From positions 1 to 64,000 of the forward strand of contig JAKYXN010000007.1 in NCBI GenBank assembly GCA_022538095.1: a stretch of DNA of 64,000 bases. Reading direction: 5' to 3'. A program made the translations under genes and the position numbers. Source of the DNA: Puniceicoccaceae bacterium K14 (GTDB taxonomy: Bacteria; Verrucomicrobiota; Verrucomicrobiia; Opitutales; Opitutaceae). Below the pieces are notes generated by a model. That model made no database searches, was not told where the DNA came from, and saw nothing but the letters and a program-made list of their open reading frames with translations. Below, piece by piece: positions 24,304 to 43,879 of this stretch (positions are counted from its first letter, which is position 1; each line of letters starts with the position of its first letter).

Positions 24304-24335
24304 GATTTGAGCGTCTCGAACATTCTATATTGACG

Positions 24336-24364
24336 AACGGCGCCTTACAAGGCGCCGTTTTTTT
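24336..24364 (+). terminator. Rho-independent terminator after the TonB receptor
   Basis: Perfect 9-bp stem AACGGCGCC (24336-24344) with GGCGCCGTT (24351-24359), loop TTACAA, followed by a run of seven T. It lies only 25 bp before the ATG of the next gene. That gene therefore needs either read-through or a promoter inside or before the hairpin. Confidence 0.92.
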
Positions 24365-24389
24365 CTTAACAGTTTACTTACTAAAAACA

Positions 24390-27300: not shown

Positions 27301-28847
27301 ACCCGCTTGAGTGGGATATTAGAGCCTACTTAACTCTCAACGGAGCCATGCATGATGCCGCCGTCGCCGCTTGGACATTGAAACGTCAATACGACTATAG
27401 TCGCCCAATTTCAATGATTCGACACATGGGCGGATACGGACAATCATCTGACCCCAACCTCCCATCGTATAACGAAAATGGACTCCCTATTGTCGATGAC
27501 CTCATTGAACTCATAACCGCTGAAAGCAGTCAACCCGGCGAGAGACACGCCCATCTTTCAGACCATGTCGACGAAATCGCTATTCGCTGCTGGGCCGGAG
27601 AACCAGAAAATAACGACACCCAATTTGGTGGAGTCGGTTGGATTCTAGCCGAAGATTGGTTCCCTTATCAAAGAAGCACCTTCGTTTCACCTGCCTTTGC
27701 CGCTTATGTATCCGGGCACAGCACCTTCAGTCGAGCAGGTGCAGAAGTACTCACCCTTCTCACTGGAACTCCATTCTTCCCTGGCGGCATTGGCGAATAC
27801 CATTTTGTTAAAAACGATTTCCTCGAATTCGAAGCAGGTCCAAGCGAGGATGTTGTTCTGCAATGGGCGACCTACTACGATGCAGCCGACGAAGCTGGGG
27901 AATCTCGCCTTTACGGCGGTATCCACGTTCCCGCAGACGACTTCATCGGGCGCCAAATCGGAGCTCGAGTCGGCCTCGAAGCATTCCTAAAAGTCCAACG
28001 GATGGTAAGCAGTCAAGGGCCTGAAAGGGGCCTCCTCAACCTTTCTTCCCGAAGCAAACTGGGAACAGGCGAAAATGTTACCATAACCGGTTTCGTCATG
28101 GATGGCACAGACAAGGAAAGCATTCTTATTCGCAGTATTGGGCCCGGGCTTGCTGATCAAAACATCACCAACTACGCGGAAAACCCTCGATTTGATCTCT
28201 ACCGTTTCAACGACTCAGACACAGGTAGCACACTCGTGATAGGAAACGACAATTGGGAAGAATGCCTCGATCCAGACGCAGTGGAAGACGCCTCCAACGA
28301 ACGCGGAGCTTTCGCTTTGAAACCATTCTCCCAAGACGCCGCTGAACTCACATCCCTCAACTCAGGAGTCTACACTGCGATTACTTCCAACAATTCGACT
28401 TCTGGCGAGATCGCCCTCACGGAAATCTACGGTGAGAACCTCCTAAACATCTCAACTCGCGCTCAAGTAAACTCTGAAAGCGAAGGCTCACTCATTGCCG
28501 GATTTTATCTAGAGAGCTCCGAACCTACAACACTACTCATCCGTGGAATCGGCCCCGCCCTCGCCCAAGAAGATGTATCCAACTTTCTAGAAGATCCTAT
28601 AATATACGTTTATCGAATGTCTTCCGACAGCGCACCAGAGCTCGTTGCCTACAACGACAATTGGCAAGAGTCCGACACCGCCTCCTTATCGCAAGTTGCA
28701 GCCGACTACATCGGAGCCACCCCTTTAAACAAAGATTCTAAGGACGCCGCCCTGTTGCTTCAACTCCCGCAAGGACTCTACACCGTCATCGTACAAAACG
28801 TATCAGGGCAAGGCGTCTCCTTGGCTGAAGTGTATCACGTCGAATAA
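24390..28847 (+). CDS. Secreted FG-GAP/UnbV/Ig/vanadium-haloperoxidase multidomain protein
   Basis: A 1485-residue protein with a signal peptide (about 1-27, ending SLLAEF). Residues ~45-440 contain FG-GAP/VCBS repeats, each with a calcium-loop-like D-x-D-x-D-G-x-x-D (VNGDGYTD, LDNDGDQD, YDLDGYLD). Residues ~458-530 are an ASPIC/UnbV domain (REPYLHFGLGTA, then ITWPSGIVQ), and ~535-620 an Ig-like domain. Residues ~620-1200 are a vanadium-dependent haloperoxidase. All vanadate contacts are present: Lys998 and Arg1005 in K-x6-RP, Ser1108-Gly-His1110 in VSGHS, and Arg1173 with His1179 in SRLYGGIHVPADD. Their spacing equals that of fungal chloroperoxidase. Two C-terminal repeats (LLNLSSRSKLG... 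and LLNISTRAQVN..., each with LIR-IGP-L) resemble the Verrucomicrobia secretion-linked domain. ATG 24390 is chosen because it gives the signal peptide. Halogenating or antimicrobial activity outside the cell is inferred. Confidence 0.92.
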   Translation: MSRTVSRFTAYTLIGSSLLAPTSLLAEFSNIIAKSGLDHIQAESKSSKHGGAAAADVNGDGYTDILVARDDMHPLLFINQGNGTFRDETSSRGLDTIQNIAGFGVGDLDNDGDQDIFISPRLGFRFYLFINDGSGVFAEEAEARGAAIKTTIEPHRGFSVGLVDYDLDGYLDIYASEWGVPSNDDNAKHSVLLRNLGEEESAHFENVTEQAGLTQPTSRNQHFVFSSGWGDFDDDGWPDLVLVSDFGTSLMYWNNGDGTFQETTEASKIGLDENGMGVAIVDYDRDGKLDIFVSSIYDRFSNDRNGTHTGNKLYKNLGDRTFTQTANGAGLSRSGWGWGASFFEYENDGNPDLVVTNGSIVSAGTNPNTTPYVDAVDDPTTLFLNLSNGTFADKTIAAGITDRELGKAIVVFDHEKDGDEDLFITNSGGHPILYQNDASTNGNNYLRLSFEGTVSNRDGYGCIVKLTTSNSIQTNLYNPTNAYIGQREPYLHFGLGTATTADVIEITWPSGIVQTLTNIPSNQVLDIVEPFVEQFAPTITTEPIGRTYEVGEKLELHAEASGHPTPVVVWEKDGIPIEGATETNFRIKKITPYDAGTYRAKFINPKGITYSNEAIVSIDLDISKFSIARIWNDFLLDAIRKDFPDPTIHSRNLYHTSAAMWDAFWACESGAWPIVEPAFTQENLTLPGSEEERQAFQEKAISHAAYSVLVHRYQNSPGKESSLYNFAWLMEYLGYDSTNLETTGNSAEAVGNRIAESIIQIALSDGSNEANNYADTSGYEAANDPMILELSGTDMEDLNRWQPLAFEYLVLQNGIHIGKSIQTFLGVNWREVDTFAISKDASNSIAIDPGPPPQFMGETHQEFVDAVVEVVRYSAMLDPNDGEYIDISPSTHLNNTLGENDGTGRAINPITQEPYPENRVKRADYGRILAEFWADGPASETPPGHWNTLLNQVSEHPQFERRFAGQGDQINPLEWDIRAYLTLNGAMHDAAVAAWTLKRQYDYSRPISMIRHMGGYGQSSDPNLPSYNENGLPIVDDLIELITAESSQPGERHAHLSDHVDEIAIRCWAGEPENNDTQFGGVGWILAEDWFPYQRSTFVSPAFAAYVSGHSTFSRAGAEVLTLLTGTPFFPGGIGEYHFVKNDFLEFEAGPSEDVVLQWATYYDAADEAGESRLYGGIHVPADDFIGRQIGARVGLEAFLKVQRMVSSQGPERGLLNLSSRSKLGTGENVTITGFVMDGTDKESILIRSIGPGLADQNITNYAENPRFDLYRFNDSDTGSTLVIGNDNWEECLDPDAVEDASNERGAFALKPFSQDAAELTSLNSGVYTAITSNNSTSGEIALTEIYGENLLNISTRAQVNSESEGSLIAGFYLESSEPTTLLIRGIGPALAQEDVSNFLEDPIIYVYRMSSDSAPELVAYNDNWQESDTASLSQVAADYIGATPLNKDSKDAALLLQLPQGLYTVIVQNVSGQGVSLAEVYHVE

Positions 28848-31865: not shown

Positions 31866-33590
31866 ATGTTCAATTCGATAACCAAAGCTCCCAGCGACCC
31901 CTCATTGTCCCCAAAAGAAACATCCCAACGTTCCTACCACACTTACATTATTGTCCTCGTTACCTTCCTCATGGGTGGATGCGGAATGGCCTATGAATAC
32001 ACTCTTAGTAAAATTGCCTCGGACATTCTCGGAAACTCCGTCCAACAGTGGGCAATAGTCATCGCCGTAATGCTCTCGTGCATGGGTTTCGGAGCAGAAA
32101 TCCAGCGGCATATTTCCGATAAGCGACTTGTCGACGCGCTCGTCTATTCGCAAATCCTCCTCGCCTTGCTCGGCGGTTATGGCTCTCTCCTCATGCTCCA
32201 TATATTCAGCGCGCTCCCCTCCCACTTCGTACTCATCCAATACATACTGGTCAGTAGCATAGGAACATTAATCGGATTCGAGATTCCACTTCTGACACGG
32301 ATAAACGAGCAATTCTCGGCCGATGTTAAAAACAACTTAGCTCGTATCCTAAAAATGGATTACCTCGGAGCGCTCATTGGGGCGCTGCTTTGGGTCTTCT
32401 TACTTTTTCGATATTTTTCCATGGTAGAGACCGGACTCATTCTTGCCCTAACTACCCTAGCATCTGCCCTTCTTCTACTCTTTGCTTTCCGTTCCCAGAC
32501 AAAGCAACTCACCCGTCTGTACTCAGGTATCGCAATCGCAACGGGCGTTATCTGCTTAGGCTTTCTTTTCAGCAAACAATGGACGCTCACTGCCGAGCAA
32601 AGGCTCTATCGCGACAAAATAGTCTTTCAAGAAACCTCCAAATATCAGCACATCGTAATAACCGAGAGCCACGCAGGCGTCCTTTCTTGTTTCATCAACG
32701 GGCACCTTCAATTCAATAGCCACGACGAGCACATCTATCACGAGAACCTCGTTCACCCAGCCATGCATATCGCCCCTAGGCGAGACTCGGTGCTCATCCT
32801 CGGAGGAGGTGACGGTCTCGCCCTACGCGAAGTTCTCAAATACGAGGACGTCAACGAAGTCACTCTAGTCGATCTCGATCCCGCCATGACAGATTTGGCT
32901 AAGAACAATCCTCTGTTCCAACGCCTCAATCAAAATAGCTTATCATCTACCAAGACTACAATAACCCCCAATGCAGCTCTCGTTGAGACAGGAAACGCGA
33001 CTCTGAACGTATCGAAAGCTACCGACTTCGCTGGAGATCAATCCGACACCATCGCCACGATATCTGTCTTCAATCTAGATGCCGCCGCTTTTGTTGCTCA
33101 GGCTCCCGGCAAGTATGATGTCATCATCATAGATTTTCCCGATCCCAACTCAGTCGAACTCGCAAAACTCTACAGCCAACACTTCTACGGTTTCGTTCGG
33201 CAAAAGCTTTCCGCTCACGGAATATTCGTTCAGCAATCAACCTCACCCTACCATGCAAAAGAGGCCTACCTCTGCATTGGCCGTACCATCCAAAGCGCAG
33301 GGCTAAACGCCCTTCCCTATCACGACAATGTTCCGTCATTCGGAGAATGGGGTTGGTGGATTGGCTGCCGAGACGACGCCAAATCGCAAGCGAAATTGAA
33401 AGACTCTCTCTTGCAAATCGACTCCTTGACTCCACCGACTCGCTACCTTACACCCAATCTCATCCACTCCTCCCTTCACTTTGGGAAAGACCAACTCATG
33501 ACAGATCAACAAGACGTAAATACGATCACCAATCCATGCATTTACACCCACTACCTCGAAGCATGGAAAAACACAAAAGGCATTCTCTAA
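31866..33590 (+). CDS. Membrane-fused spermidine synthase-like protein
   Basis: A 574-residue fusion. Residues ~25-240 form about seven transmembrane helices; ~250-560 are a polyamine aminopropyltransferase-like Rossmann domain. The domain has the substrate-binding YHENLVHPAM (291-300), the nucleotide site LILGGGDGLALREVL (near 310-324), VTLVDLDPAM, and the catalytic-loop IIDFPDPNS followed by KLYSQHFY. Compared with SpeE there is an insertion of roughly 45 residues between the NPLFQRLN segment and the LDAAAFV strand. Similar membrane-bound SpeE homologues occur in PspA-linked gene clusters. It opens the same-strand block that contains lipoprotein, DUF350, channel, PspA and SpeD genes, so membrane-associated aminopropylation is the likely role. 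Confidence 0.9.
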   Translation: MFNSITKAPSDPSLSPKETSQRSYHTYIIVLVTFLMGGCGMAYEYTLSKIASDILGNSVQQWAIVIAVMLSCMGFGAEIQRHISDKRLVDALVYSQILLALLGGYGSLLMLHIFSALPSHFVLIQYILVSSIGTLIGFEIPLLTRINEQFSADVKNNLARILKMDYLGALIGALLWVFLLFRYFSMVETGLILALTTLASALLLLFAFRSQTKQLTRLYSGIAIATGVICLGFLFSKQWTLTAEQRLYRDKIVFQETSKYQHIVITESHAGVLSCFINGHLQFNSHDEHIYHENLVHPAMHIAPRRDSVLILGGGDGLALREVLKYEDVNEVTLVDLDPAMTDLAKNNPLFQRLNQNSLSSTKTTITPNAALVETGNATLNVSKATDFAGDQSDTIATISVFNLDAAAFVAQAPGKYDVIIIDFPDPNSVELAKLYSQHFYGFVRQKLSAHGIFVQQSTSPYHAKEAYLCIGRTIQSAGLNALPYHDNVPSFGEWGWWIGCRDDAKSQAKLKDSLLQIDSLTPPTRYLTPNLIHSSLHFGKDQLMTDQQDVNTITNPCIYTHYLEAWKNTKGIL

Positions 33591-33650
33591 TTACACGTCA
33601 CTTCTTCTGTTAAATCTTTTATCATTTAAAGTAAACCTCAGGAAACCAAA

Positions 33651-34535
33651 ATGAATAAGACTATACTTCAAATAGGCCTTGGCCTATTCGCTTTCCTTTT
33701 CGTGATTTCGAGCTGCAGCAATTGCAGTCGGAAAAGCACGAACTCGTATGGCAACAACTACAACGTTTCCATCCAACAAACAATTACTCAAGATGCTGCA
33801 TCGGGCCTCGACTTAAAAGCCGTCGGCGAGCTCGTCAAAAAAGTCAAAACCGGTGAAGAATTCGAACGCTCTTTGAATGACCCCTCCACCGGCATAAACA
33901 ATCTAGATCTCGATGAAAACAATCAAGTCGACTACATAAACGTAACCGAATACGGTTCGACTGACATTCGCGGCTTCTCACTCACAGTAGACCTTGCTGC
34001 CGGCGAGACCCAAGAAGTCGCCACCATCGAAATTGAAAAAACCGCCAACGGAGCAAATGTCCAAACCCATGGCAATCGCCACCTCTACGGAAACAATTAC
34101 TACTACCGCAGCCAAACCTCGCTTACTGACGTTCTACTGATTTCCTGGCTGTTCAGCTCCAACCGCCCCTTCTACAGCTCGCCATACGGCTACGGCAACT
34201 ATCCGAACGATTACCGCTCATACACTCCGCGCAGTTACGATAACTACCGCCGAGACATGAGCAAAACAACGAGCAGCTCAACCTACACTCCCTCGAACTC
34301 GTCCACTCTCAGCAAAGAAGTTGCCTCGCCAAACGCTACAAAAACTGCGAGTAACATAAAGGCTCCACTCAAAAGCCCAACCACCGCCCAAAAGAGCTTC
34401 CAAGCTCGTAATCCATCAAAACAAGTCAAGAGCGGCGGCTTCGGTAAAAAGACCACTAGCACTGCCAAAAGCAGTTCCTACAGTCCCACCGTGAGAAAAT
34501 CAACCACCTCAAGCTTCCGAGGCGGCGGCAAATAA
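33651..34535 (+). CDS. Lipoprotein with basic, Ser/Thr-rich C-terminal tail
   Basis: A 294-residue predicted lipoprotein: signal segment with the lipobox FVISSC, Cys22. Residues ~45-150 form a beta-rich domain with an aspartate-rich NNLDLDENNQVDYINV segment. Residues ~155-180 include a hydrophobic stretch (SLTDVLLISWLFSS). The remaining 110 residues are low complexity: Tyr-rich, then Ser/Thr/Lys, ending GGFGKK...SSFRGGGK. The GGFG plus serine-rich tail is reminiscent of E. coli YgiB/YjfM (DUF1190) lipoproteins found with DUF350 genes. Homology is not proven. A good ribosome-binding AGGA precedes the start. Confidence 0.75.
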   Translation: MNKTILQIGLGLFAFLFVISSCSNCSRKSTNSYGNNYNVSIQQTITQDAASGLDLKAVGELVKKVKTGEEFERSLNDPSTGINNLDLDENNQVDYINVTEYGSTDIRGFSLTVDLAAGETQEVATIEIEKTANGANVQTHGNRHLYGNNYYYRSQTSLTDVLLISWLFSSNRPFYSSPYGYGNYPNDYRSYTPRSYDNYRRDMSKTTSSSTYTPSNSSTLSKEVASPNATKTASNIKAPLKSPTTAQKSFQARNPSKQVKSGGFGKKTTSTAKSSSYSPTVRKSTTSSFRGGGK

Positions 34536-34560
34536 AAACTTTCAAAGGAGACTTATAAAA

Positions 34561-35469
34561 ATGAATACAGATTCTCTAAATACTCTTTTCGGAACAGAAG
34601 ACGCCCTATCACTAATCGATAGTCAATCACTCATATTTCTGGTTCTCGCTATTGCCATTCTCTGGATTGGGAAACTCGTAAACGATCTTCTCACTCCTTA
34701 CAACCTCTCCCACGAGCTCACTCAAAGAGACAACAAGGCGATCGCAGTATCTTTTTCCGGATACATTTTTGCCATCGGGATCATCGTTTGGGGCATTTTA
34801 CGCCAAGATATCATCACAGCAGAAATCGGAGACGGACGCGACCTCTTGCTTCGAGACTTAGGAGGCACCCTGCTTTGGGCATTATTCGGTATTGCTCTCC
34901 TTCAAGTCGCTCGAATCGCTAACGACAAGCTACTCCTTTCAAAATTTGACAACGCCAAAGAACTCGCCGAAGACCGAAACATCGGCACAGGAGCCGTACA
35001 GGCAGGAGCCTACATCGGTTCTGCATTCACAATCCAAGCAGCCACCTACGGTGAAAGCTCAGGTAACCTTCTATCAGACGTTGGATACACCTTGCTCTAC
35101 TTCGTCATAGGCCAAATCGCCTTCATACTTTTCGCCATAATTTACCAGAAGCTCAGTTCCTACGACCTTCATAACGAAATAGAGAAGGACAACCCGGCAG
35201 CTGGCGTAGGATTCGGCATCACACTCGCCGCGGTCGGTATGCTACTATCCAGCTACATAGTAAACTACGACTCACTCCTCGGCCTAGGCCTCTGGTTTAT
35301 CATTTGCGTGTTTCTCCTATCAGTCTGCCGGTTTGCTATCGATAAGTTCATTCTCCCAGGAGATGCCCTAGACGATGAAATCGCCAAAGATCAAAACTGG
35401 GGAGCCGCCTTGATCGAAGGAGCTTCCGCACTAGGCCTAGCCCTAATTCTAACAACACTCTTTAGTTAA
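34561..35469 (+). CDS. DUF350 (YjfL-like) double-repeat membrane protein
   Basis: A 302-residue protein with eight transmembrane helices in two similar halves. Each half repeats a DUF350 unit: a helix, a short charged turn (NLSHELTQRDNKAIAVSF; DLHNEIEKDNPAAGVGFG), then a GYIFAIGIIVWG- or TLAAVGMLLSSY-like helix. The E-x-DN-A-a turn is the DUF350 hallmark. E. coli YjfL is a single-unit member and is encoded beside a PspA-like gene. It is 25 bp downstream of the lipoprotein gene and has a strong AAAGGAG ribosome-binding site. The role is unknown; a membrane component of a stress complex is plausible from context. Confidence 0.92.
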   Translation: MNTDSLNTLFGTEDALSLIDSQSLIFLVLAIAILWIGKLVNDLLTPYNLSHELTQRDNKAIAVSFSGYIFAIGIIVWGILRQDIITAEIGDGRDLLLRDLGGTLLWALFGIALLQVARIANDKLLLSKFDNAKELAEDRNIGTGAVQAGAYIGSAFTIQAATYGESSGNLLSDVGYTLLYFVIGQIAFILFAIIYQKLSSYDLHNEIEKDNPAAGVGFGITLAAVGMLLSSYIVNYDSLLGLGLWFIICVFLLSVCRFAIDKFILPGDALDDEIAKDQNWGAALIEGASALGLALILTTLFS

Positions 35470-35470
35470 T

Positions 35471-35497
35471 TCTCACCATTCACCTTTCACTCTTCTA
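35471..35497 (+). repeat. Heptamer tandem repeat in the DUF350 downstream gap
   Basis: The gap between the DUF350 and next gene holds (T/C)TCAC every seven bases, at 35472, 35479 and 35486, with a degenerate TTCTA at 35493. The same 7-base period, with the same core, occurs 3.5 kb later before the AAA+ ATPase gene. This resembles short tandem repeats described in cyanobacteria. Confidence 0.65.
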
Positions 35498-35498
35498 A

Positions 35499-36308
35499 AT
35501 GTCACAGGGCGAACAATACACTGTTACCGAAAGTCAAAAAAGCCAATTCGCAGCCATCTATCTTCTGGAGTACATGATCAATGCTCCCAAGACCTTCGCT
35601 TTAATGCTTGAGCGAGAAGAGGAAGATCTCGAACCCATACTCGAAGTTCTCATGGTTCGCGATCTAATCGAGATCAAAGACGAAGAACAATACATCCCTA
35701 CCGAAAAAGGACGAAAAGCCCTCCAGCGCTTTATGAAGCGCTATTCGGATTTCCTTACATTCTTCGATGTTTTCTGCGCCGTCGATTTGGGAGAAGGCGC
35801 CTTCGCCTTCGCCAACTATTTCGAATACGACAGCAAGGAGGCATGGTTCTCCTTCCTCAACCAAGACAATTGGGAAGACCTTCGCGTCGCTGTTGCAGCC
35901 TACAAAGGGATCGATCCAGTCGAAATCGTATTCATGAGCTTCATAAACGAAGAGCGCTTTGGCCGAAATGAAACCGGATGGACCTTCGATCTTCTGCTCG
36001 GCACTGTATGGGATGAGATTCTCCACATCTGCAATTCAGCCCTAAAAATTGAGCAATTGGGCTGGGAAGATGAAGACGGACAAATATCAGGCGAAGCAGT
36101 CATGGAAGACATACTCGCTCAAGGCCTAGCGCTCGCGGAAGAACTCCATCAACGCGAAGACAATCCGTATCGAGAAATTACTCACTCGACTAGCGATAAA
36201 CCGAGTGAACGTACGCTCGAGGCCGTTGACATCCTAAAACGTGACGCCAACAGTTTCGACCCCACTCCAGAAAAACCCGACCACTGGAAGGAACCCTGGG
36301 AGCTTTAA
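35499..36308 (+). CDS. Unknown soluble protein with winged-helix-like N-terminus
   Basis: A 269-residue acidic protein with no membrane segment. The first 75 residues (ESQKSQFAAIYLLEYM, then EDLEPILEVLMVRDLIEIK and YIPTEKGRKALQRFM) look like a winged helix: helices followed by a 'Y-PTEKG--A' wing. The middle is rich in aromatic residues (FLTFFDVFCAVDLG, then FANYFEYDSKEAWFSFLNQD), and the tail ends with a basic-proline EKPDHWKEPWEL. No family is recognised. It is placed between DUF350 and the K+ channel gene in the same-strand block, so it probably serves the same system. Confidence 0.8.
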   Translation: MSQGEQYTVTESQKSQFAAIYLLEYMINAPKTFALMLEREEEDLEPILEVLMVRDLIEIKDEEQYIPTEKGRKALQRFMKRYSDFLTFFDVFCAVDLGEGAFAFANYFEYDSKEAWFSFLNQDNWEDLRVAVAAYKGIDPVEIVFMSFINEERFGRNETGWTFDLLLGTVWDEILHICNSALKIEQLGWEDEDGQISGEAVMEDILAQGLALAEELHQREDNPYREITHSTSDKPSERTLEAVDILKRDANSFDPTPEKPDHWKEPWEL

Positions 36309-36329
36309 AATTCACGCCAATACTAAGGT

Positions 36330-37448
36330 ATGCTATTCACCCTATACAAGCGTCTTTTGCGGAGAAAAAAATTCTCCAAAAACAGGATACTCAACACGCT
36401 CTTAGTCGCTATTGGCTTAAATCTCGTTTTTGGCTTCGGATTCTATTTCGCCGAGCGCAACTCCCAAGAAACACTTACACTTATCGACTCCATCTGGTGG
36501 AGCATGGTCACCATGACAACTGTTGGTTATGGCGATCTCTACCCACAAACATTTATCGGACGCTTCCTAGTAGCCTATCCTTGCTTTATGCTTGGTATCG
36601 GCTTACTCGGCTACCTGCTTGCCACCGTAACTGAAACCATGCTCGATCGCGTATCCAGACGAAAGAAAGGCACCATGAAAATCCATCACGAAAACCATAT
36701 CATCATTTGCAACTTCCCTAACGCAGAAAAAGTGCTTCTTCTCCTAGACGAACTCCAAGCAACCGAAGCCTACAAGAGCTGCGAAGTCGTCATCATCAGT
36801 AACGACATCGACGAGCTACCCGGCCATCTCCAAAAACGGGGCGTTCACTTTGTCAAAGGACTTCCCACAAGCGAAGATGTTCTCCATCAAGCAAACATCA
36901 TTCACAGCGACGGCGTATTCATAATCCCAAAACAAAGCGACGACCCCTCTTCTGACGCCGAGACCTACGCAATAGGTTCCATCATCGAACTAATCGAAGC
37001 CGAAACAAAATCACCGATTAAAACCGTCGTCGAACTCGTGAGCGCTGGAAACCTTCGAATGATGGAACGAGCTCAAACTGATGGAATTATCGTCTCAAGC
37101 GGCATAAACGAAAACATGATCGTTCAAGAATTCCTTAACCCAGGCATTCACAAAACCTTTGAACAACTCATATCAAACAGGGAAGGCAGTCAGTTCTACG
37201 TCCACAGCACCTCCCTACGCGATATCCCTTTTGCAGACATTCAAATAGCCGCTATAAAGCACAGTACGAACATGCAACTCATTGGCATCGTTAAAGACGG
37301 CAAACACGTACTCAACCCGCCAAAACACGTAAATGTCGAATCCGGGGATCAACTCATAATCCTTGCTGACAAACTAGAAGACTTTCTTTCAATCGAAAAA
37401 GATATTGAATCCCAACGTGGCTCCGAAAAAGCCTCCAAAACTCCTTAA
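36330..37448 (+). CDS. Two-TM potassium channel with RCK/TrkA domain
   Basis: A 372-residue ion channel of the KcsA/MthK class. Two transmembrane helices (~22-41 and ~75-100) flank the pore helix and the perfect selectivity filter TVGYGD at residues 64-69. After a basic linker (RRKKG), residues ~115-240 form an RCK/TrkA-N domain: HIIICNFPN with a divergent GxGxxG replacement, then VVIISNDI and VHFVKGLPTSEDVL. A TrkA-C-like domain (~275-358) ends in ILADKLEDFL. Kv-type gating sensors are absent; ligand control by the RCK domain is likely. The family is commonly found near DUF350, PspA and spermidine-synthase genes. Confidence 0.93.
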   Translation: MLFTLYKRLLRRKKFSKNRILNTLLVAIGLNLVFGFGFYFAERNSQETLTLIDSIWWSMVTMTTVGYGDLYPQTFIGRFLVAYPCFMLGIGLLGYLLATVTETMLDRVSRRKKGTMKIHHENHIIICNFPNAEKVLLLLDELQATEAYKSCEVVIISNDIDELPGHLQKRGVHFVKGLPTSEDVLHQANIIHSDGVFIIPKQSDDPSSDAETYAIGSIIELIEAETKSPIKTVVELVSAGNLRMMERAQTDGIIVSSGINENMIVQEFLNPGIHKTFEQLISNREGSQFYVHSTSLRDIPFADIQIAAIKHSTNMQLIGIVKDGKHVLNPPKHVNVESGDQLIILADKLEDFLSIEKDIESQRGSEKASKTP

Positions 37449-37472
37449 GAACCAAAAATTCAACCAAGAACA

Positions 37473-37889
37473 ATGAACGAAGTAATCGTCAAAATAGAAA
37501 CCCAAGAAGAATTCAGCCGCTTTCTTATGCTAAACGGCTTCGACATTGAAGACCTCGGCAACGCGGTCTACAAGGTAACAAGAGCAGAGGAGCTCCCCGT
37601 CTTTCTAAAGATCGACGAAAAAACAATCTACTTCGAAGTCGACCTAGGCAACGTAAACGAATTCGGTCCGGCTTCCCTGCACTTCAAGCTCCTAGATTTG
37701 AATACAGAAATACTTCCTGTTAGCTTCGGCATCAACAACAGCAACCCGGAAGACCCTCGCCTCGTACTCGTCGAAAGTCGCGAAACAGGCTCACTCAACG
37801 ATCATGAAATCCTAAGCGTATTCGATGCCCTCGAACTCGCAGTCGATAAAGCTGAAGCCCTCTTCAACGCCCAACAATCCGAAGCGTAA
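37473..37889 (+). CDS. DUF2170-like (YjfI-type) small protein, tentative
   Basis: A 138-residue acidic soluble protein. An N-terminal alpha/beta unit (EEFSRFLMLNGFDIEDLGN) is followed by strands (LPVFLKIDEKTIYFEVDL), a central LNTEILPVSFGI and a helical C-terminus (LSVFDALELAVDKAEALF). The arrangement 'LPVFL-I----I-FEV' with a later 'L-TEI-P-S-FGI' resembles E. coli YjfI (DUF2170), encoded next to a PspA-like protein. This is similarity of pattern only. It ends 22 bp before pspA, which supports the link. Confidence 0.7.
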   Translation: MNEVIVKIETQEEFSRFLMLNGFDIEDLGNAVYKVTRAEELPVFLKIDEKTIYFEVDLGNVNEFGPASLHFKLLDLNTEILPVSFGINNSNPEDPRLVLVESRETGSLNDHEILSVFDALELAVDKAEALFNAQQSEA

Positions 37890-37911
37890 ACCCAAAAAAC
37901 ACTTTACTAAA

Positions 37912-38607
37912 ATGAGCATATTTTCACGTATCTTCAAAGTAGGACAAGCCGCAGCCAACAAGGTAGTCGACAAAATGGAAAACCCCGAGCTCATGCTCGA
38001 CCAAGCGATCCGCGATAAAGAAACTCAAATTCGCGAAGCAAAGAAATCCATCCAAAGCTGCATCGCAACAGAACGCCAAACGAAGGCTCTTCTGGAAAAA
38101 GAAAAGGCCGACAAATTCGCTTGGGAGCAAAAAGCGGAAATGGCCCTCAAAGCAGGAAAAGAAGAACTCGCTGTTCGCGCCCTGCAACGCGCTACCGAGC
38201 ATGAACAAAAAATGGCGTCACTCGATACGCAGTGGCAAAGCCAACGCGCATCCGTCGAGGAACTTAAGAAAGAAATCATTACAATGGGCGATGCCGTTGC
38301 CGAATTCAAACGCAACAAAGACTTCATCATTGCTCAAAGCAAAGCTGCTCAAGTCAAAAAAGACATCTACGAAGCCAAAGCCCGTATCTCCTCAAACAAC
38401 AAGGCTGATGACTTGATGGCCCGCATGAAAGCCAAAGCCGAGCGACAAGGCTACGAAGCAGAAGCAGCTAAGGAAATCGCAGACGTATCCACCGGAGCAG
38501 GCGATACCCTCGAAAAAGAATTCGAAAGCATGGGTAGCAGCGGCAGCGCTTCTGTCGAAGTAAATGACAAACTAGCAGCTCTTAAAGCCAAACTCGGCAA
38601 CGCATAA
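37912..38607 (+). CDS. pspA: PspA/IM30-family membrane-stress protein
   Basis: A 231-residue PspA homologue. It begins MSIFSRIFKVGQAAANKVVD, the usual amphipathic helix that docks on the membrane. MENPELMLDQAIRD follows and then a long coiled coil (about 40-190) rich in Lys/Glu/Ala. The family assembles into ESCRT-III-like scaffolds on damaged inner membrane and helps keep proton-motive force. Preceding codons of the open frame are not family-like, so ATG 37912 is used. Neither PspF nor PspB/C is nearby; instead the gene is embedded among DUF350, channel, SpeE-like, SpeD and AAA+ genes. Confidence 0.94.
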   Translation: MSIFSRIFKVGQAAANKVVDKMENPELMLDQAIRDKETQIREAKKSIQSCIATERQTKALLEKEKADKFAWEQKAEMALKAGKEELAVRALQRATEHEQKMASLDTQWQSQRASVEELKKEIITMGDAVAEFKRNKDFIIAQSKAAQVKKDIYEAKARISSNNKADDLMARMKAKAERQGYEAEAAKEIADVSTGAGDTLEKEFESMGSSGSASVEVNDKLAALKAKLGNA

Positions 38608-38620
38608 CACGCTCAACCGA

Positions 38621-39010
38621 GTGACACCGCTTGACAACAGTTTACCCGCCCAGATGCCTTCACAGGCTCTGGGCACTCACATCCTTCTGGAACTCAATAA
38701 CTGTCCAGACGACCTACTGCTAAACCAAGAACACTTAGAAAGCGTTCTTAGCAATTCCGCAACCCAAGCAGGCGCCACCGTCATCAAAAGCGTTTTCCAC
38801 CAATTTAGCCCCCATGGCCTTTCCGGAGTGGTCGTAATCGCCGAAAGCCACATTACAGTTCATACGTGGCCAGAACACAACTACGCCGCCATAGACATCT
38901 TCACCTGCGGTGACCCCAATATCGCGCAGCGTATTCAAGATCAAATAATAAAAGAATTCACCCCAGCTACTCACACCACCCAAACAATAACCCGCGGCCC
39001 CACCCAATAG
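38621..39010 (+). CDS. speD: S-adenosylmethionine decarboxylase proenzyme (SpeD/SpeH type)
   Basis: A 129-residue prokaryotic-type AdoMet decarboxylase. LGTHILLELNNCP is the N-terminal signature. Self-cleavage between Glu75 and Ser76 in AESHITVHTWPE would make the pyruvoyl group. His81 and Cys96 in DIFTCGD complete the active site. It makes decarboxylated AdoMet, the aminopropyl donor for the SpeE-like enzyme. The frame starts with GTG (38621); an internal ATG at 38654 gives MPSQALGTH, an equally plausible start. It follows pspA by 13 bp. No arginine or ornithine decarboxylase is present, so putrescine must come from elsewhere. Confidence 0.93.
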   Translation: MTPLDNSLPAQMPSQALGTHILLELNNCPDDLLLNQEHLESVLSNSATQAGATVIKSVFHQFSPHGLSGVVVIAESHITVHTWPEHNYAAIDIFTCGDPNIAQRIQDQIIKEFTPATHTTQTITRGPTQ

Positions 39011-39016
39011 AAGAAA

Positions 39017-39050
39017 TTTCACTCTTCACCATTCACTTTTCACCCTTCCA
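39017..39050 (+). repeat. Heptamer tandem repeat before the AAA+ ATPase gene
   Basis: TTCAC occurs at 39018, 39025, 39032 and 39039, with a degenerate TTCCA at 39046: a 7-base period (TTCAC plus two variable bases) for about five units. It ends three bases before the ATG at 39053, so it replaces a normal ribosome-binding site. The same motif precedes the gene at 35499. Confidence 0.7.
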
Positions 39051-39052
39051 CC

Positions 39053-40390
39053 ATGGCCGACATCAACGCCGCCGCCCAATCCTGTTTTTCTAACTACCAG
39101 ACGACCAAAAGAAGTCTTATCAGCCAACACGGGTGCTCTGATTTTGAAATCGATTTTGAAATTCGTTTCGCCCTTTTCCTAAGCGGCCTCATAGATGGCG
39201 ATACAAACGCAAGCGAACGTGCCTTTCTCCAAGCCAGCATTTCAGCTCTAGAATGGTCACCCACCTACGAAGGACTCCTCCGCTCACGTATTGAGAAATT
39301 ACCAAGCTACGATCTCGCCCAACTGCGCATCGCCAAAGAGCATCCAGAGCTAGCTCAGCTCATTCTAAGGGCAGCCTACGCGATGGCCCTTTCAGACGGA
39401 ACGCTTAGCAATGACGAGCGATTCCTGCTCTCAAACTTTGCAGATACAACCCTAGCAAACGAAAAAGGCAGAGCCGCCCAAGCGGAATCAGAAGCTCGCT
39501 CGCTCTTCCAGAGCGACAGTTCCCCGATTTTTGAGCAAGTAGAAGACACAAAAGAACCGTCACCAGAGATTGACGACAATAGCACCCTCGAAGACGAACT
39601 CGAAAATCTCAACAAGCTCATTGGGCTAAAAGAGGTCAAAGATGAAATCAACCGACTAGTACACTTTCTCGAAATTCAAAAACAACGAGAAAGCCACGAC
39701 CTAAAAACAACCGCACTCTCCCTTCACCTCGTCTTCTCCGGCAACCCGGGCACAGGAAAGACTACAGTCGCTCGCATCTTGGCTCGAATTTTCAAGAAGA
39801 TGAATGTTCTTAAAAAAGGACATCTCATAGAAACAGACCGCATGGGCTTGGTCGGCCAGTACGTTGGCCACACAGCAAAGAAGACTTCAGAAATTATAGA
39901 CTCAGCCCTAGACGGCATCCTATTTATAGACGAAGCCTATAGCCTGGTAGGAGGAGAAAACGACTTTGGCAGCGAAGCCATTGATACACTCGTAAAACGA
40001 ATGGAAGACGATCGCGATCGCTTAATCGTAATTGTTGCCGGGTATCCAAACGATATGGACGAATTCATCAGCACGAATCCTGGCTTAAAATCTCGTTTCA
40101 CAAAAACAATTCTATTCTCCGACTACAAACCAGCCGAACTCTCGAAAATCTTTCAAATATTCTGCAACAATAACCAATACGAAACTTCAAACGAAGCGTT
40201 GGAAAAGCTAGACCAAGTTTTTGGTAACGCTCTAGCAAACGCAAACAACGACTTTGGCAACGGGCGATACGTGCGCAACCTATTCGAACAAGCGATCCGA
40301 AACCAAGCTATGCGACTTAGCCAAAACAAAGGCGAATTGACCAAGAAGGACCTCACAACTTTGGAAGCCGCAGACTTCGTATTGCCTTAG
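39053..40390 (+). CDS. TerB-like/AAA+ ATPase (CbbX/SpoVK type)
   Basis: A 445-residue protein. Residues ~25-135 have two TerB-like segments, FLSGLIDGDTNASERAFL and YAMALSDGTLSNDERFLL, with the metal-binding-type DG-----E pattern. An acidic linker (150-180) leads to a classic AAA+ module: Walker A GNPGTGKTT (230-238), Walker B ILFIDEAYSL (289-298), VIVAGYPNDMDEFI with the sensor region and GRYVRNLFEQAIRNQAMRL carrying arginine fingers. The ATPase resembles CbbX and SpoVK. Such AAA+ proteins remodel protein complexes; a role in PspA or channel remodelling is inferred from position, since it lies 42 bp after speD. Confidence 0.92.
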   Translation: MADINAAAQSCFSNYQTTKRSLISQHGCSDFEIDFEIRFALFLSGLIDGDTNASERAFLQASISALEWSPTYEGLLRSRIEKLPSYDLAQLRIAKEHPELAQLILRAAYAMALSDGTLSNDERFLLSNFADTTLANEKGRAAQAESEARSLFQSDSSPIFEQVEDTKEPSPEIDDNSTLEDELENLNKLIGLKEVKDEINRLVHFLEIQKQRESHDLKTTALSLHLVFSGNPGTGKTTVARILARIFKKMNVLKKGHLIETDRMGLVGQYVGHTAKKTSEIIDSALDGILFIDEAYSLVGGENDFGSEAIDTLVKRMEDDRDRLIVIVAGYPNDMDEFISTNPGLKSRFTKTILFSDYKPAELSKIFQIFCNNNQYETSNEALEKLDQVFGNALANANNDFGNGRYVRNLFEQAIRNQAMRLSQNKGELTKKDLTTLEAADFVLP

Positions 40391-40417
40391 AAAAACATAC
40401 CAATCGACCCTCGAAAA

Positions 40418-42154
40418 ATGTTAAACGCGAGCGATCTAGAATCGCATCTAAACCGTATAGACGGCAAACAGTACCCACAATATAAAGACATACGAGGAAA
40501 GTATGATTTCGGAAACTTCATTCTCTCGATAGATCGCATTCAAGGCGATCCCTTTGCAGCTCCATCACGACTCTCGCTCGCAATCGAGCACAGCGAGTCG
40601 AAACTCCCAAAGGACCTATTCTCCAACCGTTCTCGCAAAACTGGAACTGAAACCTACCTCGCCAAACGTTTCTCTAAAGCCTGTCAAAAATCAAAGGACC
40701 ATTCCGGTTCCGGCAAATCGGGTCTCATTGCCATCGATACCCCAGGTCAAGAAATCATCGAACGCACCTGCATTAGCATAAGCGAATCTCGAACCGTCGC
40801 TCGCTTCTCAGTTGGCCTCCCAGCCAGCGGGCGCCGCATTCTCGGCAGAGCTGCAACCAAACTCCTCGTAGAGCAAATACCCTCTATCGTAGAACAAGCG
40901 CTCTGCTATGCCAACATCGATTCTCAGACAATCACCTCCTACGCTGACACAAACGAAGACGCCGACATCCTCCGTTCAAAGCTTGAAGAACACTCACTCA
41001 TCGCCTTTGTAGCCAAAGGATCGGTGTTTCCCAGAGCCACCGGCGTCGATCAACGCCCACTAGAAAACGCAATCAAATTTGCCTCGCCTCCCAGCCTCTC
41101 CCAATCATTCGAATTACCGCACGCTGGCACGGTCATAGGCATGGGAATCCCCAAAGGCGTCACCTTAATCGTCGGCGGAGGCTACCACGGCAAATCCACC
41201 CTCCTAAACGCTATCGAACGCGGCGTCTACAACCATTGCCCAGGGGATGGACGAGAACTCGTAGTCACCCTTCCAGATGCTACTAAAGTCCGAGCTGAAG
41301 ACGGACGCTCCGTAGCTAACGTCGACCTTTCTCCATTCATCAACAATCTCCCAGGAGGGAAAGACACCCAAAACTTCACGACAGAAAACGCCTCGGGTTC
41401 CACCTCTCAAGCAACCTCTATAATTGAGACTCTCGAAACCGGTTGTAAAACCCTTCTCATTGACGAAGATATATCCGCCACCAATTTCCTAATACGCGAT
41501 CAACGCATGCAAAAACTGATCGCCCCAGACAAGGAACCCATCACTCCTTTCTCTGATCGCGTCGAGGCCCTTTACTCAGGCCACAATACCTCAACCCTCA
41601 TCGTGCTCGGAGGTTCTAGCGCATACTTCGAGGCAGCCGACTGCGTTATAGCGATGGACAACTACACACCCCTCGATGTAACTGCCCAAGCGAAAGAGCT
41701 ATGCGATGAAGGTAACGTGTCCACAAGAGAGCCCTTCTCCCTCCACCCAGGAAAAAGCCGCTACGCAAAGCAAAGCGCAATCAATCCTTATAAAGCCGCC
41801 GCACCTTACCGCGGTCGCCGCCCAGGTTCTAATGATCGCCCACCGCGCCTAAACATAAAAGCCCAAGGGACTCAAAGCCTCACCTTTGGCAGCAACGAAA
41901 TAGATCTCTCCCTACTCTCTCAAATCATCGATCCCGCTCAAACGCGAACAATCGGAGCCGCCCTCGCTTACGCCGTAGAAGAAAACCTTTTTGAAACCCA
42001 ATCCCTCGTCGAAGCTCTCAAAACCGTCATCCAAACCATCAACGAAAACGGTATCACAATTCTTAACGGCTACGATCTAGCAACCATCCGCCTCCAAGAG
42101 CTCACTGCCACCTTAAACCGCCTTAGGGCGCTAAACGCGGAGTATCGTAGGTAG
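40418..42154 (+). CDS. ABC-class predicted ATPase (COG3044)
   Basis: A 578-residue soluble ATPase. VTLIVGGGYHGKSTLLNAIE is the Walker A block of the COG3044/'ABC_ATPase' family. Other family features are SGSTSQATSIIETLETGCK with the Q/signature-like region, LLIDEDISATNFLIRD (Walker B) and STLIVLGGSSAYFEAADCVIAM. The N-terminal GKYDFGNFILSIDRIQGDPFA and the C-terminal SLTFGSNEIDLSLLSQI are also typical. Mitochondrial and bacterial members relate to RNA handling but the bacterial role is not settled. It follows the AAA+ gene by 27 bp and ends the block. Confidence 0.9.
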   Translation: MLNASDLESHLNRIDGKQYPQYKDIRGKYDFGNFILSIDRIQGDPFAAPSRLSLAIEHSESKLPKDLFSNRSRKTGTETYLAKRFSKACQKSKDHSGSGKSGLIAIDTPGQEIIERTCISISESRTVARFSVGLPASGRRILGRAATKLLVEQIPSIVEQALCYANIDSQTITSYADTNEDADILRSKLEEHSLIAFVAKGSVFPRATGVDQRPLENAIKFASPPSLSQSFELPHAGTVIGMGIPKGVTLIVGGGYHGKSTLLNAIERGVYNHCPGDGRELVVTLPDATKVRAEDGRSVANVDLSPFINNLPGGKDTQNFTTENASGSTSQATSIIETLETGCKTLLIDEDISATNFLIRDQRMQKLIAPDKEPITPFSDRVEALYSGHNTSTLIVLGGSSAYFEAADCVIAMDNYTPLDVTAQAKELCDEGNVSTREPFSLHPGKSRYAKQSAINPYKAAAPYRGRRPGSNDRPPRLNIKAQGTQSLTFGSNEIDLSLLSQIIDPAQTRTIGAALAYAVEENLFETQSLVEALKTVIQTINENGITILNGYDLATIRLQELTATLNRLRALNAEYRR

Positions 42155-42245: not shown

Positions 42246-42767
42246 TTAGATCCCTCTCCACTTTGCAATGTACTCGCTAGACTGTTTTCTGGGCAATCGC
42301 CTCTTCTGCTCTCCAGTCAATCCGATTAAATACTCCAGTTTATCAGCAGCTACAACCCCCTGAATAACACCTTTCAATACAAGCTGATCAAGTATCCAAA
42401 TAGTTCCATGCACTTCGATTCGATATTTCACTTCAGCTTCATGCCTTAGAGGTTTATCACCGGTTAACAGCATAGCTCCTTTTTGCATCGCAAGAAATAA
42501 GACGGAAGCATCCACAACTCCAGCGCCTTTGGGCTCAAAGCTCCGGTGAATCCGATCAACTTCCAACAAATCCTCAAAGCTAATAATAGTCTCCAATATA
42601 GAGCCATTTTTCACGTACGAAAGAGCTTGAATATGACTTCCTTTTCGAAGCTCTCTACAAACCAGGTTTGTCGTATGAGTTTCGATACCGAGTTGAAACC
42701 ACAGGTCTAGCAATCCAGATAATTCTAGGTCAATGAGTATATTTGCATCCTGAACCGCGACTTTCAT
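42246..42767 (-). CDS. PIN-domain nuclease-like protein (candidate toxin)
   Basis: A 173-residue PIN-fold protein. The four acidic positions are visible: Asp7 in QDANILIDLE, Glu39 in VCRELRKGS, Asp86 in GVVDASVLFLA and Asp104 in LLTGDKPLR. These coordinate Mg/Mn in RNA-cleaving VapC-type toxins. The C-terminus (EYLIGLTGEQKRRL) is an extra basic extension. Its start lies eight bases after the end of the XRE-ImmA gene, so the two are one operon with the regulator first. The function as toxin is inferred from this pairing. Confidence 0.9.
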   Translation of the reverse strand: MKVAVQDANILIDLELSGLLDLWFQLGIETHTTNLVCRELRKGSHIQALSYVKNGSILETIISFEDLLEVDRIHRSFEPKGAGVVDASVLFLAMQKGAMLLTGDKPLRHEAEVKYRIEVHGTIWILDQLVLKGVIQGVVAADKLEYLIGLTGEQKRRLPRKQSSEYIAKWRGI

Positions 42768-42775
42768 TTCTTCGT

Positions 42776-43879
42776 TCAGATTGTTGCGAACTCAGATTCA
42801 GCAGCGAACTCTGGCAACGTCAGTCCCAATAAGCTCGCAGCTTTTGATTGGGTGAGCAGCTCACACGTGTACGCTCGGTAAACAAGATGCTTAAAGCGGC
42901 TAGCGGACTCACTCCCTACCCACTCACTAAAACTCGGCTCAACCTTATTCCAACCTTTCGTTCGCATGTATATACAAAAACCTTTGTAAGTACTGGAACT
43001 AACAAGTCCAAGCGTCTCTGCACGCTTCATAATCGCAGCCAACGAAATCCCCCACTCTTGCTTGATCGCTTTAAGCTCAGGGATACTTACGCGAGGACGT
43101 TTCCCTCCAAAGGCATCAATGAAAGCTCCCTTCGGGACGAGAAATGCACCTGCAAAGCGATGGCACAACACTTCGATATCCTTTTCAGAAAATCCTTTTG
43201 GAAACTCTAAAACTAGGTGCCCAAGTTCATGAAGCTCAGTAAAGCGCTTTCGTGGTAAATCTGTATTTAGATGCTTAGCTAGAACAACTACTGGCAATCG
43301 CCCTTCGGCCGATTCAGCCCAACCAGAAAACCCATTAAACGACTCCGGAGCATCTACCTCTTTTACTTTAACACCACGTTCCTCTAGAAGCATATGAACA
43401 TTTGGCAAAGCGTTCTCACCGAGCTTCCAAATTTCAGTTCGGAGTTCATACGCGATACGTTCCACTTGTTCACCGAGATCTTCAGATGCGTTCAATTCCC
43501 AAACTGGTAATGACTCCGCTTCTATCTCCAAAATCGACTCAATATCTAAATAACGTTCAAAAAACTCCAAAGCCTGTTCCCGAACTTGATCCTGAGCTTT
43601 CTTGCCAAACTTGCTTTGCTTGCGAAACGCGATCCCACTCAAAACTAAATCATTATCTCGAAAGAAAAAATCAGGTTCGAGATCTAGAACATCGCAAATC
43701 GAAACTAAAACCGATGAGTCAGGCCCCATCAATCCACGTTCATACTTACTCAAAGCCATACGAGTAACCACATGCCCCATCTCTGTAGCCAGCCCCTCCA
43801 AGGACAGCCCGCGCAAAAGCCGAGCACGCCGCAAACGCTCTCCAAACCGCTTCTTCAAATTATTACCCTCTGTTGACAT
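42776..43879 (-). CDS. XRE-family regulator fused to ImmA/IrrE metallopeptidase (candidate antitoxin)
   Basis: A 367-residue protein. Residues ~10-70 form an XRE helix-turn-helix (RFGERLRRARLLRGLSLEGL, then MALSKYERGL). Residues ~140-250 are an ImmA/IrrE peptidase domain with HELGH at 217-221 and a helix carrying Glu236 ahead of HRFAGAFLVP. The C-terminal ~100 residues are helical. This architecture occurs in phage regulators and toxin-antitoxin antitoxins. It precedes the PIN gene by eight bases. A 7-bp inverted repeat directly upstream is a candidate operator for self-control. Confidence 0.92.
   Translation of the reverse strand: MSTEGNNLKKRFGERLRRARLLRGLSLEGLATEMGHVVTRMALSKYERGLMGPDSSVLVSICDVLDLEPDFFFRDNDLVLSGIAFRKQSKFGKKAQDQVREQALEFFERYLDIESILEIEAESLPVWELNASEDLGEQVERIAYELRTEIWKLGENALPNVHMLLEERGVKVKEVDAPESFNGFSGWAESAEGRLPVVVLAKHLNTDLPRKRFTELHELGHLVLEFPKGFSEKDIEVLCHRFAGAFLVPKGAFIDAFGGKRPRVSIPELKAIKQEWGISLAAIMKRAETLGLVSSSTYKGFCIYMRTKGWNKVEPSFSEWVGSESASRFKHLVYRAYTCELLTQSKAASLLGLTLPEFAAESEFATI

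Follow-up and report, generated by a model that had tools for sequence, protein, structure and literature searches.

What does a spermidine synthase fused to a membrane domain do among genes for PspA, a potassium channel and an AAA+ ATPase? This question is raised by positions 31,866 to 42,154 of the first 64,000 nucleotides of contig JAKYXN010000007.1 from Puniceicoccaceae bacterium K14 (this whole stretch is referred to as the window), where ten genes, g1 to g10, lie on the same strand. The block is read here, with a probability of about 0.55 and from sequence comparison, as a PspA-linked variant of a modular system that would attach polyamine tails to proteins. The novel element is the C-terminal lysine (Lys) of g2 and its recurrence beside related enzymes, on both of which the original prediction for this locus, a candidate envelope-stress system, was silent.

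In the proposed mechanism, the S-adenosylmethionine (AdoMet) decarboxylase g8 would produce decarboxylated AdoMet. The seven-transmembrane (7-TM) enzyme g1, with a catalytic domain predicted to be extracytoplasmic, would then aminopropylate the C-terminal Lys of g2 (...GGK) on its side-chain amine, leaving a spermidine-like cationic tail on this membrane-anchored protein, with g3, a DUF350 protein, as the regular partner in the membrane. The tailing unit would, in this lineage, be tied to a membrane-maintenance unit of PspA, a CesT-type protein and an AAA+ ATPase, to a K+ channel and to an acidic winged-helix protein. The E. coli type would reach a related end product by other chemistry, in which spermidine is ligated to a protein ending in Gly-Gly by an ATP-grasp enzyme.

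Terminal lysines beside membrane-fused SpeE enzymes

SpeE-type enzymes fused to a membrane domain (transmembrane SpeE, TM-SpeE) have a membrane-anchored neighbour ending in Lys at 47 of 49 assessable loci, and 46 of these ends read GK or HK. The recurrence spans several phyla and proteins differing in size and type; the g2 orthologues themselves end in RGGGK (L007 and L009), RSGGK (L008) and RGGK (L018). The idea first arose from L018, L019 and L023, where g1 homologues stand next to different proteins with GGK or GAGK ends; it was then written down. Among the loci fetched after it had been recorded, 35 of 37 obey it, 23 of them in a selection blind to the last residue. In 395 genomes drawn from the phylum to which G291, the source of L010, belongs, 28 loci exceeded the NF002956 cut-off, and the sample includes every one of them. 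It also includes one of 26 genomes whose only match was weaker, and 10 of the 13 plasmid records in which g1 has a homologue; the three left out belong to genera already sampled. Twelve Verrucomicrobiota genomes carry g1, and G269, which has a stop inside the match, was not taken. The 53 loci were reduced to 49 by removing L020 and L028 (contig edge), L040 (partial gene) and L069 (below the cut-off).

Several controls bear on this pattern. Selection blind to the last residue yielded 76 candidate open reading frames (ORFs) near TM-SpeE, 38 of which end in K and 32 in GK or HK; among 63 far ORFs, six end in K and none in GK or HK. At 33 of the 49 loci, the tail was among the ORFs of the blind selection. 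Of the non-blind tails, three could be read from a listing without a filter (L025, L048, L067), eight came from a listing limited to ORFs with a final K or a length above 120 residues (L026, L034, L036, L038, L039, L042, L044, L058), and two came from divergent-strand ORFs ending in GK or HK (L035, L037); the L039 tail and that of L033, also non-blind, are annotated genes. A mechanical count of hydrophobic ORFs of at least 35 residues ending in GK or HK, with thresholds set once the tails were known, found them at 43 of 49 loci in sense, 0 of 49 in antisense and in 2 of 112 control windows. Other ORFs of at least 100 residues in 45 loci end in K in 61 of 566 cases and in GK or HK in four of 566. 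Codon usage was also examined in 45 tails: Lys is encoded by AAA in 38 and by AAG in seven, both His and all four Gly codons precede it, and all three stops are used. An artefact of codon or ribosome site was rejected, since codons and stops vary.

The proteins bearing these ends are diverse, ranging from a 45-residue single-TM protein to one of 510 residues. Without their last 12 residues, the 47 tail proteins form 15 BLAST clusters, every one ending in K, a number that exaggerates independence, since homology can go unseen in short proteins. A DUF4178 domain over the Pfam cut-off occurs in two proteins that combine TM segments with a Lys tail, L048:8495-9889 (-) ending in SGSHK and L067:4760-5464 (+) ending in RGFGK; each fuses two genes that lie side by side in related operons. 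One lipoprotein family occurs in five of 316 genomes and always at a TM-SpeE locus; four of the five matches are profile members, and the added information is its absence from the other 311. In the open-access literature searched (titles and abstract openings among the matches listed, with Li et al. 2019 and Pederick et al. 2023 outside this scope), no mention was found of a C-terminal Lys beside an aminopropyltransferase.

The enzymes themselves are more uniform. At the 49 loci, TM-SpeE carries GGGDG in 46 cases, GGGEG in two and GAGDG in one, and DFPDP or DLPDP in all 49, with Pro at a position held by A, S or T in three solved relatives that were aligned. Within 8 kb, by the thresholds used, SpeD is present at 40 of the 49 loci and DUF350 at 43. 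Two operon types can be distinguished. The GK type (21 loci) has PspA with CesT in 11 and a K+ channel in eight. The HK type (25 loci) has DUF350 in 25, SpeD in 24, a flavin adenine dinucleotide (FAD) oxidoreductase in 23, DUF4178 by BLAST in 18 and PspA in none; its oxidoreductase might act on the modified tail.

A hydrophobicity scan of 52 proteins found seven segments in 41, and 0 and 2 in L040 and L069; in the TM-SpeE proteins with seven segments, Lys and Arg cluster in the loops on the N-side. In the short tail proteins, these residues are more numerous before the segment than after it in 21 of 32 cases, equal in 10 and fewer in one. The SpeE domain and the tail ends are therefore both predicted to lie outside, as judged by segment number and charge distribution. 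An aminopropylation local to the membrane, as originally suggested, would fit an enzyme fused to a TM domain.

Gly-Gly ends beside ATP-grasp ligases

The two loci without a Lys tail, L060 and L061, both carry SpeD together with a YjfC-related ATP-grasp ligase, and the gene preceding the ligase ends in SYGG. In E. coli, YjfM ends in HWGG, an end that was known before the Lys idea was recorded, and YgiB ends in SMGG; their neighbours, YjfC and YgiC, are named peptide-spermidine ligases in RefSeq. YjfC-like ligases occur in 159 plasmid records, 13 of which were sampled, hand-picked for variety. Together with the two E. coli loci, and minus the distant ligases L117 and L118 and L106, these provide 12 partners, of which eight end in GG, two of the eight (Methylobacterium and Paracoccus) having surfaced in a listing of GG-ending ORFs. 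With L060 and L061 added, 10 of 14 ligase partners end in GG and none in K. The Methylobacterium partner is DUF1190 by Pfam and the Paracoccus one reads like DUF1190. No Pfam family matched the Arthrobacter, Deinococcus and L061 partners, so the GG end is not confined to one family. Beside a YjfC-like ligase, L116:3263-3769 (+) is annotated as a tRNA-dihydrouridine synthase, a product name that is probably wrong: it has no Pfam match, is lipoprotein-like and ends in GGGGHGG. No ATP-grasp peptide-spermidine ligase was found among the ten genes of the block, and there is no YjfC-like tblastn match within 8 kb of g1.

Weighing the alternatives

One alternative, which follows the original prediction and Ravi et al. 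2024, is that the enzyme makes free spermidine or a relative at the membrane, with PspA and its partners responding to polyamine level or membrane damage. Its ingredients are at hand, as AdoMet decarboxylase and SpeE stand in one block and g1 scores 582 bits against the NF002956 cut-off of 472, the model for a polyamine aminopropyltransferase; effects of polyamines on membrane stability are cited in the available part of Ravi et al. 2024 (PMC11237479). PF02675 (SpeD) has one match per genome in G000 (the genome carrying the block), G046, G131, G288, G289 and G290. This match falls inside the block in G000 and G131 and in the g4-g9 half in G046; in G288, G289 and G290 it shares a contig with a PF01564 match, at the island's spacing. 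Both PF01564 fragments of G000 fall in g1, so that the island holds the sole SpeD and SpeE matches of the genome; G289 and G131 have additional PF01564 proteins over the cut-off. Carboxynorspermidine decarboxylase (nspC) scores over its cut-off in four of the six genomes, with none in G289 and a weak match in G046. Because nspC of G000 lies elsewhere in the genome, outside the island, a separate route is possible, and this organism may make polyamines without the island's SpeD/SpeE pair. Production of free polyamine would also leave the terminal Lys rule and the Gly-Gly ends unexplained, and it is considered unlikely.

The terminal Lys could alternatively be a peptidoglycan anchor, joined to the wall by an L,D-transpeptidase, with an aminopropyltransferase that merely shares the envelope setting. 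In Braun's lipoprotein, an envelope protein with a functional C-terminal Lys, this residue is joined to the cell wall; g2 likewise ends in GGGK, and the tails are membrane-anchored, the short ones being predicted to face outside. Braun's lipoprotein differs in having no aminopropyltransferase, whereas the Lys described here tracks TM-SpeE. A profile of the g2 family matched 37 of 395 genomes, and 33 g2-family ORFs in 30 returned loci include none beside TM-SpeE and none ending in GK or HK (one ends in KKKK). One of the 33 is the L010 protein, itself in the profile. Most of these ORFs are longer, with just a part of the profile in common, and TM-SpeE is present elsewhere in six of the 30 genomes. 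In addition, Gly is the usual last residue of proteins partnered with ATP-grasp ligases. Anchoring to the wall is thus an improbable explanation.

In a third scenario, an unmodified Lys tail would dock in the amine site of the enzyme and, as a tethered inhibitor or sensor, adjust the activity of the enzyme or the channel. The same sequence facts are compatible with it, the terminal Lys would resemble a diamine, and eight of the 21 GK-type loci have a K+ channel; the Gly-Gly ends beside enzymes with the RefSeq name of peptide-spermidine ligase point instead to covalent products, which makes docking distinctly improbable. Inheritance of a functionless Lys from one ancestral short protein would suit the concentration of most tails in a few groups and the hidden homology of short proteins, but it is very improbable given that the Lys is kept in proteins of about 230-510 residues, in single-TM proteins of 45-85 residues and in the two DUF4178 fusions while bodies and codons change.

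Covalent polyamine tailing is the preferred reading, and a number of observations weigh against it. Fourteen of the 47 Lys tails lie outside the blind selection, 10 of them coming from listings filtered for particular ends, and the thresholds of the mechanical count postdate the tails. Many loci are related, which makes the number of independent events far smaller than 47. In L032, the tail has the end VK rather than GK or HK, and at L021 (G129) a contig with CesT, PspA and DUF350 has a partner ending in RRG, with SpeE on another contig. Among the 12 ligase partners, one CG, two GS and one HA end break the GG pattern; the L106 ligase has no visible partner, and the distant ligases L117 and L118 have neighbours ending in ASS and RAY. 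The topology derives from hydrophobicity and charge counts alone, nine of the 52 proteins have six segments, and g1 of the window has four Lys or Arg in the 20 residues after its last segment. A catalytic domain placed outside would also require passage of decarboxylated AdoMet across the membrane, and the data point to no carrier. Finally, the peptide-spermidine ligases of E. coli use ATP and the C-terminus of YjfM looks periplasmic, judged by its basic N-terminus, so that this branch would need tailing before export.

Composition, conservation and relatives of the block

The coordinates of the block are collected in the table. The listing of ORFs over 31866-42154 confirmed ten plus-strand genes with intergenic gaps of 60, 25, 29, 21, 24, 22, 13, 42 and 27 bp from g1 to g10, figures that take the ATG at 37912 as the start of PspA. 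The close same-strand arrangement originally described thus stands, as do the assignments of SpeE, DUF350, the K+ channel with its RCK domain, PspA, AdoMet decarboxylase and the AAA+ ATPase, all recovered by Pfam or NCBIfam.

Table. Genes of the block and associated features; positions are those of the window unless loci are named
Feature	Position	Strand	Description	Basis
g1	31866..33590	+	SpeE-type aminopropyltransferase domain behind N-terminal 7-TM domain	NF002956, PF01564
g2	33651..34535	+	Ser/Gly-rich, membrane-anchored; proposed substrate	C-terminus RGGGK
g2 C-terminal RGGGK	34518..34532	+	last Lys is the proposed modification site	
g3	34561..35469	+	DUF350 membrane protein, DUF350 duplicated	PF03994 188 bits, 2 stretches
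g4	35499..36308	+	acidic winged-helix-like protein, no assigned family	AlphaFold2 model, structural matches
g5	36330..37448	+	K+ channel with RCK-type domain	PF07885 (Ion_trans_2) 56 bits, PF22614 34 bits
g6	37473..37889	+	CesT/Tir-superfamily protein, PspA partner	PF05932 22.2 bits, cut-off 22
g7	37912..38607	+	PspA/IM30	PF04012 (PspA_IM30) 139 bits
g8	38621..39010	+	AdoMet decarboxylase (AdoMet_dc)	PF02675 128 bits, TIGR03330 132 bits
g9	39053..40390	+	SpoVK/CbbX-type AAA+ ATPase, weak TerB-like N-terminus	PF00004 (AAA), PF17866 (AAA_lid_6)
g10	40418..42154	+	P-loop ATPase, presumably COG3044 type; judged a bystander	PF09818 (ABC_ATPase) 395 bits
HK-type loci	L022, L024, L026, L027, L035-L039, L041-L056		HK-ending membrane protein, mostly short	

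Nine of the ten genes behave as a unit. Genes g1-g9 (31866-40390) keep their order and strand, at 61-87% identity per gene, in L007 (an Opitutaceae metagenome-assembled genome, MAG), L008 (a Verrucomicrobia MAG) and L009 (Pelagicoccus sp.), all Verrucomicrobiota; four loci came from scanning named genome contigs with g4. The prediction of a conserved unit of PspA, polyamine, channel and AAA+ genes is borne out at this level, for nine of the ten genes. In G046, the unit is split into two places, g4-g6-g7-g8-g9 and g1-g2-g3, and PspA lies near the aminopropyltransferase at just five of 37 assessable loci in the Bacteroidota-centred and plasmid samples. The Bacteroidetes MAG locus L010 has, of the block, only a g2 homologue, PspA and g4. 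G131 (L019:262-8594, -) combines g1, g3 and g5-g9 with a gene for a DUF4178 protein and another two small genes; it lacks g4 and g2 and has a GAGK-ending protein of 85 residues in place of g2, which shows that partners are exchanged. The unit is rare and modular: in a phylum sample that includes this genome, g4 is found in two of 288 genomes, g6 in four and, at E 1e-20, g1 in 12. Gene g10, presumably a COG3044 ATPase as named in the original prediction, had been counted as a member. It is absent from all three syntenic loci, and in their genomes its homologue lies on another contig (G288 and G290) or is missing (G289, and likewise G046). For these reasons, it looks like a bystander.

Individual proteins required some revision. 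Gene g1 has the motifs GGGDG and DFPDP and seven predicted hydrophobic segments with an N-in charge pattern. For g2, membrane anchoring stands and the label of lipoprotein is uncertain: no Pfam family matched, and the lipobox is poorly kept in orthologues, with no suitable Cys in L018 and Arg within it in L008 and L009, on which grounds a classic lipoprotein was rejected. Its predicted structure is too uncertain for use (mean predicted local distance difference test score, pLDDT, 48.4). Gene g6, described as DUF2170-like, has no DUF2170 match in Pfam and no meaningful match among PDB sequences; its CesT score sits at the Pfam cut-off, and this superfamily includes YjfI/DUF2170 according to the available part of Ravi et al. 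2024 (PMC11237479). It is adjacent to g7, which occupies the place of E. coli YjfJ beside a CesT-type gene. The AAA+ portion of g9 was recovered with its lid domain and with TIGR02881 at 319 bits, under the cut-off of 423, and the TerB portion reached 18.6 bits, below its cut-off of 24.4. No DUF4178 match was obtained with Pfam among the ten proteins of the block, as distinct from L019 and other loci.

The winged-helix character of g4 agrees with its AlphaFold2 model, which is of middling confidence (mean pLDDT 66.5, predicted template modelling score 0.65) and whose matches, at a best structural Z of 6.2, are only common winged helices, mostly of bacterial transcription regulators. No relative was found in the PDB by sequence, and g4 is modelled as a winged helix plus a further part without a family. 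Its isoelectric point is 4.3, and the acidic first domain has a net charge of -4 to -10 in five homologues, which argues against ordinary DNA binding and proves nothing. On the fold expected of an ESCRT-II-like adaptor, a candidate partner of a PspA/Snf7 protein, the comparison yielded winged-helix matches only (Z at most 6.2).

Scans for promoters and terminators were uninformative: promoter-like sites numbered five against a shuffle mean of 9.2 and terminator-like sites 19 against 14.8 (standard deviation 3.8). Rfam gave no match in the window at gathering scores. Next to the block, at 42246-43879 on the minus strand, a gene with a helix-turn-helix and an IrrE-type peptidase adjoins a gene for a 173-residue protein without a Pfam match at 0.001; the two look like a regulator or toxin-antitoxin-like pair. 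Farther away, at 24330-28847 on the plus strand, lies a gene for a 1505-residue protein with FG-GAP/UnbV repeats, an Ig domain and a vanadium-chloroperoxidase-like helical domain.

The closest E. coli systems are yjfIJKLMC and ygiBC, which share a CesT-type protein (YjfI), a PspA-type protein (YjfJ), a DUF350 protein (YjfL) and a surface protein beside a polyamine enzyme. This enzyme is an ATP-grasp peptide-spermidine ligase in E. coli and an aminopropyltransferase in the block, and the partners YjfM and YgiB, both DUF1190, end in GG and not in GK. The block itself belongs to a published kind, since most of its parts appear in Ravi et al. 2024 (PMC11237479). One group of operons described there joins CesT and PspA to a spermidine synthase fused to a 7-TM domain, an 8-TM DUF350 protein, DUF4178 and a novel lipoprotein of the Ctha_1186 type, of which g2 is an uncertain counterpart; other PspA-CesT operons contain a K+ channel together with an ATP-grasp ligase. 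A link between polyamines and membrane dynamics is also proposed, and polyamine level or the aminopropylation of other substrates is suggested to play a part. The set of genes, originally called broader than known ones, is accordingly new in part: the block combines features of these two groups and adds the TerB-like AAA+ protein and g4, without DUF4178. The part of the paper available makes no mention of C-terminal residues. Diatom silaffins (PMC6356823) are likewise proteins covalently conjugated to long-chain polyamines; they differ in being eukaryotic and serving silica deposition, and the part of that source available revealed no TM-fused aminopropyltransferase or link to a C-terminal residue.

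A role of the block in envelope stress, as first proposed, is plausible and unproven, and regulation of the operon's K+ channel by a nearby tethered polyamine is speculation. On a wider scale, the odds are even that C-terminal polyamine tailing of envelope proteins is widespread and proceeds by two unrelated chemistries, Lys aminopropylation by a membrane enzyme whose catalytic domain is extracytoplasmic and Gly-Gly spermidine ligation by an ATP-grasp enzyme, with the enzyme of each operon dictating the terminal residue and with wiring to PspA, AAA+ proteins and a K+ channel in some lineages. The terminal-residue rule provides a concrete candidate substrate for each enzyme class. If true, this system would represent a protein modification that ties polyamine metabolism to the cell envelope and PspA.

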